Shown here: positions 53,540 to 64,000 of the stretch, in pieces
Numbering within the stretch: the first letter of the stretch is position 1
How the letters are laid out: each line of letters begins with the position of its first letter
From: Variovorax sp. dw_308
Lineage (GTDB): Bacteria; Pseudomonadota; Gammaproteobacteria; Burkholderiales; Burkholderiaceae_C
Length of the DNA: 64,000 nucleotides
Assembly (NCBI RefSeq): GCF_019207085.1
Contig: NZ_JAATOM010000002.1
Span: 310,001-374,000, forward strand
Direction of reading: 5' to 3'
The notes under the pieces: generated by a model
The model's database searches: none
What the model saw: only the letters and a program-made list of their open reading frames with translations
Told to the model about the DNA's origin: nothing
Made by a program: the position numbers and the translations under genes

Positions 53540-55024
53540 TTGAACAAACCCTACGAAGAAGGCCTGATCACCGACGCAACCGTGGTCACCAATGAGAGGA
53601 AGCGCTACAGCGCGGGCGTCCTGAAGTACCGCCAGATGGGCTACTGGGACCCGCACTACGAGCCGAAGGACACCGACGTGCTCTGCCTGTTCCGCATCAC
53701 GCCGCAGGACGGCGTGGACCCGGTGGAGGCCGCCGCGGCGGTGGCCGGCGAATCCAGCACCGCCACCTGGACCGTGGTGTGGACGGACAGGCTGACCGCC
53801 TGCGACAGCTACCGCGCCAAGGCCTACAGGGTCGACCCGGTGCCGGGGCAGCCGGGCCAGTACTTCGCCTGGGTGGCCTACGACATCATCCTGTTCGAGG
53901 AAGGCTCGATCGCCAACATGACGGCCAGCCTGATCGGCAACGTGTTCTCCTTCAAGCCGCTGAAGGCGGCGCGGCTGGAGGACATCCGCATCCCGGTGGC
54001 CTACGTGAAGACCTTCAAGGGACCGCCGACCGGACTCATCGTGGAGCGCGAGCGGCTCGACAAGTTCGGCCGTCCCTTGCTGGGCGCCACCACCAAGCCG
54101 AAGCTGGGCCTCTCCGGCCGCAACTACGGCCGCGTGGTGTACGAGGGGCTGAAGGGCGGGCTGGACTTCATGAAGGACGACGAGAACATCAACTCGCAAC
54201 CCTTCATGCACTGGCGCGACCGCTTCCTCTACGTGATGGACGCGGTGAACAAGGCGAGCGCCGCCACCGGCGAGGTCAAGGGCAGCTACCTGAACGTGAC
54301 CGGCGCAACGATGGAAGACATCTACGAACGCGCCGAGTTCGCCAAGGACCTGGGTTCGGTCATCGTCATGATCGACCTGGTGATCGGCTGGTCGGCCATC
54401 CAGAGCATGTGCAACTGGGCGCGCCGCAACGACATGATCCTGCACCTGCACCGCGCCGGTCACGGCACCTACACGCGGCAGAAGAACCACGGCGTGAGCT
54501 TCCGCGTCATCGCCAAGTGGCTGCGGCTGGCCGGCGTGGATCACATGCACACCGGCACGGCGGTCGGCAAGCTGGAAGGCGATCCGATGACGGTGCAGGG
54601 CTACTACAACGTGTGCCGCGACAGCTACACGAAGAAGGACCTGCCGCGCGGCCTGTTCTACGACCAGGACTGGGCCGACCTGAAGAAGGTGATGCCGGTG
54701 GCCTCCGGCGGCATCCATGCCGGGCAGATGCACCAGCTGATCGACCTGTTCGGCGACGACGTGGTGCTGCAGTTCGGCGGCGGCACCATCGGGCACCCGG
54801 GCGGCATCCAGGCCGGCGCGGTGGCCAACCGGGTGGCGCTCGAATGCATGGTCAAGGCGCGCAACGAAGGCCGCGACATCCGGAACGAAGGGCCGGAGAT
54901 CCTGCAGGCCGCCGCGCGCTTCTGCACGCCGCTGAAGCAGGCGCTCGACACCTGGGGCGACATCTCCTTCAACTACACGCCCACCGATACCAGCGATTTC
55001 GCCACCACGCCATCCGTCGCCTGA
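53540..55024 (+). CDS. cbbL: RuBisCO large subunit, red type (form IC/ID)
   Basis: 494 residues from a TTG at 53540, chosen because GGAGG ends 5 bases before it; the only upstream ATG in frame falls in the cbbR-proximal region. Active-site Lys186 is in [10 protein letters not shown], and the carbamylated Lys212 with Asp214 and Glu215 in MKDDEN. The start [20 protein letters not shown] and [20 protein letters not shown] are red-type. It fixes CO2 onto ribulose 1,5-bisphosphate. Operon with cbbS (13 bases) and cbbX, whose product activates red-type enzymes only. Confidence 0.96.
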
Positions 55025-55037
55025 GGAGACCCACACC

Positions 55038-55478
55038 ATGATGACCAACCCCACCGGCCGCATCACGCAAGGCCAGTTCAGCTTCCTGCCCGACCTCAGC
55101 GACGACGAGATCACCGCGCAGATCCAGTACGGCCTCGACAAGGGCTACGCCTGGAGCGTCGAGTACACCGACGACCCGCACCCCCGCAACACCTACTGGG
55201 AGATGCACGGCGCGCCGATGTTCGACCTGCACGACGCGGCGGGCGTGATGATGGAACTGCAGGCCTGCCGCAAGGCCTTCCCCAGCCACTACATCCGCAT
55301 GATGGCCTTCGACTCGACGCGCGGCGTGGAGACCATCACGATGAGCTTCATCGTGAACCGGCCCGCGGAGGAGCCCGGATTCGGCCTGGTGCGGCAGGAG
55401 TCCAACGGCCGGACCATGCGCTACACGGTGCGCAGCTACGCCACCGAGCGGCCGGAGTCGCAGCGCTACGGCAACTGA
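55038..55478 (+). CDS. cbbS: RuBisCO small subunit, red type
   Basis: 146 residues, with ATGATG giving a choice of start. The segment [20 protein letters not shown] and [23 protein letters not shown] are standard for red-type small subunits. The extended C-terminal part ([16 protein letters not shown]) is the beta-hairpin tail absent from green-type proteins. AGGAGA lies upstream, 13 bases after cbbL. It caps the octameric core of the holoenzyme. Confidence 0.95.
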
Positions 55479-55497
55479 ACGACAGCAGGACACTCGC

Positions 55498-62509: not shown

Positions 62510-62514
62510 CGCCG

Positions 62515-63333
62515 TTATTTTGCGGCGATCAGTTCACCCTTGCCGTCGGCCGAGAGGTCACCGAGGTGCCGCTCGATGCGTCTCGAAGCCAGCGTCGCGA
62601 ACGGCCCGCCCTGTCGAGCGAGATCGCGCGCCAGCAGTTGCCAGATGACATCAACCGCCGCGATGGCTGGAACGAACGTAGCTGCAGGCTCAAACCCCGC
62701 GGGCGCCGAGGCCAGCACCACGCTGCCGCGCCGCATCCCGTACCCGACATGCGCGCCAACACTCCCGCCGACGGCGATCGTCCCGGCCGCCATGCGCGAA
62801 GCGAGGAAGTCGCCGGCGTGGCCATGCACGATCGCGCTGCCGCGCCGCATGCGGTCGCCGAAGCGCGCCCCCGCATTGCCCTTGACGATGAAGGCACCAC
62901 CGCGCATGCCGTCCAGGCTGCCCGGCAGAGTGCCGGCCGCGAAATCTCCCACGTCGCCCAGCACGGTCAAGCGGCCACCTGCCATTTCGCATGCGGCAAG
63001 AAGGCCCGCGCGGCCTTCGACCAGCATTTCGCCCGCGCTCATGCAGCCACCGGTGTAGTGGCCGACCGGGCCCGTCACCCGGATGCTGCCGCCCGCCATC
63101 TTCCAGCCCACGCGATCGAAGCGCGACAGGTCGCCGTCGAAGACCAGGGCCTCGTCGCCGTCATTTGGCGTGATGCCGAAGAACTCCGCCAGCGGGACGA
63201 AGGCGTTGCCATGGCCCACGGTGATTCGCTCGAGATCGCCGGCTGACATCCCGCTCAGCGCCGCAGGCGTCACGCCGCGCAGGTCCACCCGCAGCGCAGG
63301 CTGGGACTTGAGCGCGAATCGCCAGCCGCTCAT
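62515..63333 (-). CDS. fhcC: Formyltransferase/hydrolase complex subunit C (formylmethanofuran dehydrogenase-like)
   Basis: 272 residues. The C-terminal two-thirds is a right-handed beta-helix made of repeats such as GPVGHYTGG, GRAGLLAACEM, GDVGDFAAG and GNAGARFGD at about 18-20 residue spacing, the FwdC/FhcC fold. The start WRFALKSQPALRVDLRGVTP is typical of the bacterial protein. It belongs to the Fhc complex that takes the formyl group from tetrahydromethanopterin to formate in the formaldehyde-oxidation pathway. The start overlaps the fhcD stop (ATGA). Bacterial Fhc lacks the redox centre of archaeal Fwd. Confidence 0.92.
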   Translation of the reverse strand: MSGWRFALKSQPALRVDLRGVTPAALSGMSAGDLERITVGHGNAFVPLAEFFGITPNDGDEALVFDGDLSRFDRVGWKMAGGSIRVTGPVGHYTGGCMSAGEMLVEGRAGLLAACEMAGGRLTVLGDVGDFAAGTLPGSLDGMRGGAFIVKGNAGARFGDRMRRGSAIVHGHAGDFLASRMAAGTIAVGGSVGAHVGYGMRRGSVVLASAPAGFEPAATFVPAIAAVDVIWQLLARDLARQGGPFATLASRRIERHLGDLSADGKGELIAAK

Positions 63334-64000
63334 GGCTGCGCCCCCGCATCGAGCAGCTTGTGCAGATGAAAGTGGAACGGCCCCAGCTTGCCGCCGTAGT
63401 TGCCCGCTGAAATGCGCAACAGACCCTTGCCTGCGCCGAGCGCAATGCCGGCCTCCATGCCCACGCGCATCGCTGCGCCGACATCGGCTTCGGTCAGGCC
63501 GTCGATCACGATCTCCATCACGCAGCGGGTGTGCGGCGTCAATTCACTGCCGCTGACCAGGCCGTAGAGGCTCGGGCAGAACGCGTCGTTGGTCGATGCA
63601 CTCAGCGCGGCGTACTTGCTGCCCACCTTCGACCCCGATCGCACCACGCCGCCCGGGAAGGGCATGATCACATTGGGCAGCGCCTTCATCGCCAGCACCG
63701 CAGCCTCCGCGACGGCCAGCGCACTGTCGGTGTCGGTGCACAGCAGCAGCAGGTTGCCGCCACCCACGCCCTTGACCACCGCGGTCGTCTCCTGGGCCAC
63801 GAACTCACCATCCATCACGGGCACGCGCCAATAGCGCACGCCGTCGATCACCTTCGACATCTGCCAGCCATCGCCGAAGAAGCGCAGGTTCTTGCCGAGC
63901 GCAATCGCCTCGCCCTCGGCGATGCCCGCGTAGACCGCGGTCGTCGGGCATGTGAGCACGCATTGGCCGACGCGGCGCTCGACCTGCTTGGCCAGTTCCT
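63330..64000 (-). CDS. fhcD: Formylmethanofuran:tetrahydromethanopterin formyltransferase (partial, runs off right edge)
   Basis: About 223 C-terminal residues are present; the upstream part lies beyond 64000. The frame is open to the edge and continues in the family pattern (KQVERRVGQCVLTCPTTAVYAG), so the GTG near 63957-63959 is not the true start. SKVGSKYAALSASTNDAFCPSL and GVGGGNLLLLCTDTDSALAV are standard Ftr/FhcD motifs. It moves the formyl group from formyl-H4MPT to a methanofuran-type carrier. Coupled to fhcC by ATGA overlap; fhcA and fhcB would be expected upstream. Confidence 0.93.
   Translation of the reverse strand, partial: ELAKQVERRVGQCVLTCPTTAVYAGIAEGEAIALGKNLRFFGDGWQMSKVIDGVRYWRVPVMDGEFVAQETTAVVKGVGGGNLLLLCTDTDSALAVAEAAVLAMKALPNVIMPFPGGVVRSGSKVGSKYAALSASTNDAFCPSLYGLVSGSELTPHTRCVMEIVIDGLTEADVGAAMRVGMEAGIALGAGKGLLRISAGNYGGKLGPFHFHLHKLLDAGAQP

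Follow-up and report, generated by a model that had tools for sequence, protein, structure and literature searches.

What does it mean that an operon for carbon fixation runs head-on into an operon for formaldehyde oxidation? This question is raised by a 64,000-nucleotide stretch of the Variovorax sp. dw_308 genome (G000:C28:310001-374000, hereafter the window). Near its right end, the operon of ribulose-1,5-bisphosphate carboxylase/oxygenase (RuBisCO) and other Calvin-Benson-Bassham (CBB) genes converges on fhc genes of the tetrahydromethanopterin (H4MPT) route. Judging from gene content, the stretch probably forms the left end of an island for autotrophic methylotrophy that combines XoxF, H4MPT, formate dehydrogenase and CBB genes: the genes of a route from methanol to CO2 were found within about 85 kb of cbbL on the same contig. 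The convergence itself appears specific to this lineage. The listed completeness of the genome (7.9 Mb, 114 contigs) is 100% and its listed contamination 5.81%; despite the latter figure, a single contig of 688,676 bases (C28) holds all of the island genes named here, coxL (carbon monoxide dehydrogenase large subunit) excepted.

An earlier note on this DNA had described cbbLSXYFPZ on the plus strand meeting fhcD-fhcC-pabBC-flavin mononucleotide (FMN) reductase on the minus strand, and the open reading frames and their coordinates bear this order out. HAD denotes haloacid dehalogenase-type proteins.

52504..53433, minus strand: cbbR, LysR-type regulator, divergent from cbbL (PF00126 and PF03466)
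53540..55024, plus strand: cbbL, form I RuBisCO large subunit (PF00016, 435 bits; closest solved chain 1BXN, 968 bits)
55038..55478, plus strand: cbbS, RuBisCO small subunit (PF00101, 130 bits)
55498..56502, plus strand: cbbX, RuBisCO activase (TIGR02880, 518 bits, cut-off 459)
56499..57230, plus strand: HAD phosphatase in the cbbY position (PF00702/PF13419; equivalog cut-off unreached among the families listed, 25 of 28)
57249..58322, plus strand: cbbF, class-1 fructose-1,6-bisphosphatase (NF006779, 440 bits, cut-off 349)
58336..59229, plus strand: cbbP, phosphoribulokinase (PRK15453), start approximate (NF011997, 511 bits, cut-off 362)
59229..59918, plus strand: HAD phosphatase in the cbbZ position, phosphoglycolate-phosphatase-like (NF009695, 208 bits, below the cut-off of 225)
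59919..60023, no strand: convergent gap, 105 bases between opposing stop codons
60024..60587, minus strand: NADPH-dependent FMN reductase-like gene (PF03358, 139 bits; SsuE/MsuE/ArsH models far below cut-off)
60584..62509, minus strand: pabBC fusion, aminodeoxychorismate synthase and aminotransferase class IV (PF00425 and PF01063)
62515..63333, minus strand: fhcC (TIGR03122, 211 bits, cut-off 131)
63330..64000, minus strand: fhcD, extending beyond the window end (the part in the window scores 297.8 bits with NF002554, cut-off 297, and 277 with TIGR03119, cut-off 293)

The cbbL start was placed at the TTG at 53540, in agreement with the earlier note (the family scans used 53555), and this gene is the only RuBisCO large-subunit match in the genome at E values up to 1e-60. 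Its closest solved chain, 1BXN, is what we take to be the red-type RuBisCO of Cupriavidus necator. Going by this chain and by the presence of CbbX, the enzyme is predicted to be of form IC, the form closest to the proteobacterial red type and accompanied by CbbX. RuBisCO and phosphoribulokinase, both part of the methylotrophy gene set, are present. The cbbR product is 86-88% identical to that of the cbbL-adjacent gene of Variovorax J22P240, J2P1-59 and J22R24. On the other side of the gap, the ATG of the FMN reductase gene overlaps the pabBC stop at 60587 (ATGA), with a further ATG at 60596, and pabBC presumably supplies p-aminobenzoate for H4MPT. Immediately beyond the right window end, fhcA (TIGR03121, 671 bits, cut-off 393) and fhcB complete fhcABCD as one operon.

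All the genes that the earlier note had proposed to look for to the right (fhcA, fhcB, fae, mtdB, mch, methanol dehydrogenase and formate dehydrogenase) turned up on the same contig, mtdB in the form of an MtdA/MtdB-type gene. Beyond fhcB are divergent mfnD-type and mfnF-type genes, the latter over the TIGR03123 cut-off. The region at 392-402 kb of C28 then holds genes for 4-(hydroxymethyl)-2-furancarboxaldehyde-phosphate (4-HFC-P) synthase, a DUF447 protein, a dihydropteroate-synthase-like protein, Fae, a CitG-family protein, Mch, an ATP-grasp protein, the MtdA/MtdB-type dehydrogenase and a GHMP-kinase-type protein, so that genes for methylofuran- and H4MPT-type cofactors are also found nearby in the island. 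The fae, mch and MtdA/MtdB-type genes are located about 30-36 kb past the cbbL end: fae is over its cut-off and is the sole match in the genome, mch scores 369 bits (cut-off 229), and the MtdA/MtdB-type product matches the solved MtdA chains 6tge/1lu9 at 129 bits.

A XoxF-type methanol dehydrogenase gene is found at 425.6 kb of C28 (about 61 kb past the cbbL end), with PedC-type ATP-binding cassette (ABC) and beta-propeller genes alongside. Its best solved chains are the lanthanide XoxF enzymes 6dam (949 bits) and 6oc5 (925 bits), against 661 bits for 4tqo, presumably a calcium enzyme. A second aspartate marks lanthanide methanol dehydrogenases, and the XoxF sequence carries this extra aspartate, reading DFD at the site where 4tqo has DYA. 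Formate dehydrogenase subunit genes follow at about 435-440 kb (about 70-75 kb past the cbbL end). Two subunits were scanned, alpha (942 bits, cut-off 666) and gamma (238 bits, cut-off 198), and these point to an enzyme that is probably linked to nicotinamide adenine dinucleotide (NAD); a 91-residue open reading frame downstream of these genes had no family match. Finally, pqqE, pqqC and pqqB, for pyrroloquinoline quinone (PQQ), are at about 442-445 kb, all over their cut-offs.

We propose the following mechanism, in which catalysis, regulation and growth are predicted from the known functions of the families found. Methanol would be oxidized in the periplasm by the lanthanide-type, PQQ-dependent XoxF, and the resulting formaldehyde would be bound to H4MPT by Fae. 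Oxidation by the MtdA/MtdB-type dehydrogenase and conversion by Mch would follow, and FhcABCD would release formate. A soluble Fds-type formate dehydrogenase would turn formate into CO2 and NADH, and form I RuBisCO with the CBB operon, controlled by CbbR, would fix the CO2.

Three further observations concern genes related to those of this route. A second PQQ alcohol dehydrogenase gene is present on C28 at about 8.4-10.3 kb (L100 8365-10338); its nearest solved chains are the quinoprotein ethanol dehydrogenases 6zcv/6zcw, and it has DFD at the extra-aspartate site. On another contig, a formate dehydrogenase-like match contains one in-frame TGA (L095, G000 C61:450693-451466) and is possibly a selenocysteine enzyme. 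The island's right end holds a FolB-type dihydroneopterin aldolase gene (L099 19391-19891), possibly serving pterin supply.

We then considered whether the 105-base junction has a meaning of its own. We found no terminator-like pattern in the gap (six occur in 52300-64000 against 5.3 expected), and the predicted RNA fold of 59905-60040 was no better than that of shuffled sequences (z = -0.71); with the pattern count near expectation and this z value, a terminator or special fold in the gap was rejected. Promoter-like patterns in the gap numbered zero against 0.9 expected, which is a weak test in a G+C-rich genome. A plasmid search returned 105 records, none of which matched 80% of the query in one place, and the 15 matches listed cover the cbb part only.

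The comparison with relatives was based on the best 80 of 378 fhcA relatives in named genomes, 68 of which extend 6 kb or more beyond fhcA, far enough for the junction to be visible. Variovorax sp. J22P240, J2P1-59, J22R24 and J22R133 are closest (88-90%). The exact cbb-fhc junction of the window was present in none of the 68 loci with enough flank, and the window's cbbZ and FMN reductase, both of which flank the junction, had no match in any of the 80 fhc loci. A pabBC match stands beside fhc in 47 of the 80 loci (the Rhizobacter loci match the PabB part only), and in 44 of these 47 the pabBC match is followed by a HAD match that starts no more than 600 bases beyond its end. With no such junction in 68 loci and HAD after pabBC in 44 of 47, we rejected the possibility that cbb and fhc constitute one conserved convergent unit.

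In Variovorax J22P240, the order is fhcBADC-pabBC-HAD-response regulator-histidine kinase-pqqBCE. In the window genome, the HAD-regulator-kinase-pqq block is intact at 442-449 kb of C28, where HAD lies about 76 kb from pabBC and a sigma-54-type regulator now precedes it. Variovorax J22P240, J2P1-59 and J22R24 have the same type of RuBisCO operon (cbbL 91-92% and cbbP 89% identical to those of the window) on a different contig from fhc, and their cbbZ is only 39-41% like that of the window. Because the HAD-pqq block is displaced here and the cbb operon of these relatives is on another contig with an unlike cbbZ, the junction looks derived by rearrangement in this lineage, with the break between cbbP and pabBC. 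The same rearrangement may have brought in the FMN reductase gene and the cbbZ of the window. The convergence is not purely singular, however, as cbb also converges on fhc-pab in two Rhizobacter loci, across an interval of about 6 kb occupied by HAD, regulator and kinase genes. These results suggest that the convergent junction is probably without special meaning and needs no special mechanism. The earlier note had inferred that the two operons form one module from C1 compounds through CO2 to biomass. The 105-base convergence that it described is a lineage-specific arrangement, but its suggestion of autotrophic methylotrophy in a Comamonadaceae-like bacterium is supported by gene content.

A looser association between RuBisCO and fhc is better supported. 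We searched the first 50 of the 80 named fhcA-bearing genomes for RuBisCO and found it in 43. In 15 of these 43 genomes, RuBisCO lies within 65 kb of fhcA against 0.71 expected from contig and genome sizes, a count reached in none of 200,000 simulations, although this radius was chosen after the distances had been seen and the counts are not tree-corrected. Other radii gave 12 of 43 against 0.48 at 40 kb (no simulation), 3 of 43 against 0.27 at 20 kb (503 simulations), 15 against 0.82 at 80 kb and 15 against 1.5 at 200 kb (no simulation in either case). The 15 cases on one contig are about 8-64 kb apart, one of them near the edge of the radius (G402, 63.6 kb between the genes); the other 28 genomes have the two genes on different contigs, where linkage is unknown rather than absent. 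The linked cases are not independent, since eight are Variovorax at about 32-38 kb. The other layouts comprise two Rhizobacter genomes (15 kb), one Rhizobacter metagenome-assembled genome (MAG; 34 kb), two Piscinibacter MAGs (50-51 kb), Variovorax J22R133 (64 kb) and Aromatoleum (8 kb).

The two genes also tend to occur together. In a sample of the family, RuBisCO was found in 23 of 28 genomes with fhcA compared to 46 of 222 without it (Fisher p = 2e-10); counted by genus, the figures are 17 of 19 and 32 of 122 (p = 1.8e-7). Eight of the 23 family genomes with both genes have them within 65 kb. The family and named samples share genomes by coordinates (e.g., G560 and G419) and are not independent. 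An order-wide search found 37 of 399 genomes over the fhcA cut-off and was not used further. In a tree of 18 RuBisCOs, the sequence from the window falls into a clade (97/99 support) with Variovorax J22P240/J2P1-59/J22R24, Leptothrix, Rubrivivax and G635, and Variovorax paradoxus (91/91) and Paraburkholderia (100/100) form separate groups; support is low at the deepest fork (59/55), and five forks are open. It seems to us an even call that, in Burkholderiales and their neighbours, the CBB operon has been drawn repeatedly into or next to XoxF/H4MPT islands, involving at least three RuBisCO clades and either side of fhc; lanthanide-dependent autotrophic methylotrophy would then be widespread and largely untested in plant and soil Variovorax, Rhizobacter, Piscinibacter and Paraburkholderia.

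Several observations weigh against the interpretation of this region as an autotrophic-methylotrophy island. Of the expected set of fae, mtdA/B, mch and fhcABCD, all are present, but fhcB scores 143 bits with TIGR03129, well below the cut-off of 328 (it is within the operon and matches 6s6y_B at 83 bits), and mtd is identified only by its MtdA match, as no NCBIfam C1 model was reached. The mfnD-type gene scores far below its cut-off, and the lanthanide enzyme 4mae matches XoxF at 612 bits, less than 4tqo. In addition to the missing junction in relatives, the separate contigs of their two operons, and the choice of radius and overlap of samples mentioned above, five of the 28 fhcA-bearing family genomes had no RuBisCO match and three of the 23 with both genes (G506, G550 and G572) carry them at a large distance on a single contig.

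These points leave room for other explanations, beginning with the source of electrons for carbon fixation. Because neither NiFe hydrogenase (PF00374) nor SoxB (TIGR04486) had a match in the genome at E values up to 0.001, hydrogen and thiosulfate were set aside as electron donors, the SoxB control being weak with no control genome over the cut-off. Carbon monoxide (CO) remains a rival, since coxL on contig C72 (L117 3876-6185) scores 1362.6 bits against a cut-off of 991 and the use of the CBB cycle with CO is established in carboxydotrophs. RuBisCO could then serve growth on, or survival with, CO, while the H4MPT and XoxF genes would burn methanol for energy only. We consider this unlikely: it is the xoxF, H4MPT and formate dehydrogenase genes that share a contig with cbb, whereas coxL is on another, and the CoxL motif reads AYRCSLR where form I CoxL has AYxCSFR. 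The co-occurrence of fhcA and RuBisCO in the family also speaks against it, although that test was confined to fhcA.

It is alternatively conceivable, though quite improbable in our judgement, that the H4MPT route is a safety valve for formaldehyde (e.g., from the methoxy groups of plant aromatics) and that XoxF provides extra electrons, with no C1 carbon passing through RuBisCO and a neighbourhood that is coincidental. The lack of conservation of the exact junction and the fhcA-bearing genomes without detected RuBisCO fit this explanation. So does Methyloversatilis universalis, which has H4MPT and CBB genes, yet is reported in the excerpted text of PMC5023235 to induce only serine-cycle enzymes in anaerobic methanol growth; because of this case, gene content alone is no proof of autotrophic methylotrophy. 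A coincidental neighbourhood is nevertheless difficult to reconcile with a looser linkage that exceeds chance with RuBisCOs of different clades, and with an island that also includes formate dehydrogenase and PQQ genes. The least probable explanation, which we regard as very remote, is an assembly error joining two separate loci. The contamination estimate would allow it, and the three closest named relatives have both loci on different contigs, but the junction lies inside C28 with even G+C and intact reading frames on both sides, and C28 also carries the displaced HAD-kinase-pqq block. The island is our preferred explanation.

The left flank of the cbb operon holds two further features.

48233..50773, minus strand: TonB-dependent outer-membrane receptor (TIGR01783, 149 bits, cut-off 223.5; NF041535 PqqU, 88.6 bits, cut-off 1200; both below)
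50977..52488, plus strand: DASS-family anion symporter (TIGR00785, 372 bits, cut-off 199)

The receptor sits two genes from cbbR, and a 43% match precedes cbbR in the methanol island of Variovorax paradoxus (stretch L113). The solved chains that it matched, YncD and a PQQ transporter, cover residues 491-670 only. It is weakly PqqU-like, may take up PQQ, a metallophore or a lanthanide carrier, and is a putative member of the module; the symporter is probably outside the module. Two wax-ester/triacylglycerol synthase-type acyltransferases flank the cbb-fhc region (window 46441-48117 and L003 17370-19049; 74% identical over 458 residues).

Under the island interpretation, this Variovorax-like bacterium and its relatives are predicted to depend on RuBisCO for growth on methanol supplied with lanthanum. 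Since plants produce methanol and Variovorax is frequent at roots, this capacity, if true, would bear on who consumes plant methanol. A specialist may not expect the repeated linkage of RuBisCO and fhc in differing layouts, and this part is worth following.

The pathway itself is already known elsewhere, and the present locus is a further case with a rearranged junction. A search of the open-access literature on Variovorax with xoxF and RuBisCO matched only a methanotroph paper, and we do not claim that the linkage is absent from print. Related arrangements can be seen in the genomes that we compared. A span of about 52 kb in Variovorax paradoxus NBRC 15149 (L112-L114) unites fhcBADC-pabBC, pqqBCE, xoxF, PedC-type ABC genes, cbbR-cbbLSXYFP and fds. 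In contrast to the window, its RuBisCO belongs to a different clade (83% identical) and is encoded between xoxF and fds in the orientation of fhc, and a HAD phosphatase follows pabBC with no FMN reductase match. Rhizobacter OV335 and Root1238 (L023, L032, L115-L116) resemble the window in that cbb converges on fhc-pab with cbbP nearest, but differ in the HAD, response regulator and kinase genes that fill the stretch between pabB and cbbP, and the RuBisCO of Root1238 is of the Variovorax paradoxus clade. Six of the 80 loci, from Paraburkholderia/Caballeronia (L083-L086, L089 and L091), have cbbLS about 8 kb from fhcA; there it is on the opposite side of fhc, beyond mfnD/mfnF, with a third clade of RuBisCO and no pabBC match in the locus.

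Sphaerotilus belongs to the same order as the window organism. The text available from PMC13300288 reports its growth on methanol with XoxF, H4MPT and CBB genes and raised expression of rbcL and prk. The likeness extends to XoxF, the H4MPT route, an NAD-dependent formate dehydrogenase, RuBisCO and phosphoribulokinase; Sphaerotilus differs in having RuBisCO forms IC and II, and that text does not describe a physical linkage of RuBisCO and fhc. A soil study reports xoxF in 28 of 34 Comamonadaceae genera and, in its excerpted text, urged retesting with lanthanides (PMC7065363). In Bradyrhizobium/Sinorhizobium, a working XoxF-CBB pathway is described in the accessible portion of PMC12628762, with formaldehyde processed via glutathione instead of H4MPT as here. 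According to the same portion, Sinorhizobium meliloti 2011 has its genes for XoxF, formate dehydrogenase and the CBB cycle gathered within a 28.5-kb segment of pSymB; XoxF, formate dehydrogenase and the CBB cycle are shared with the island described here.

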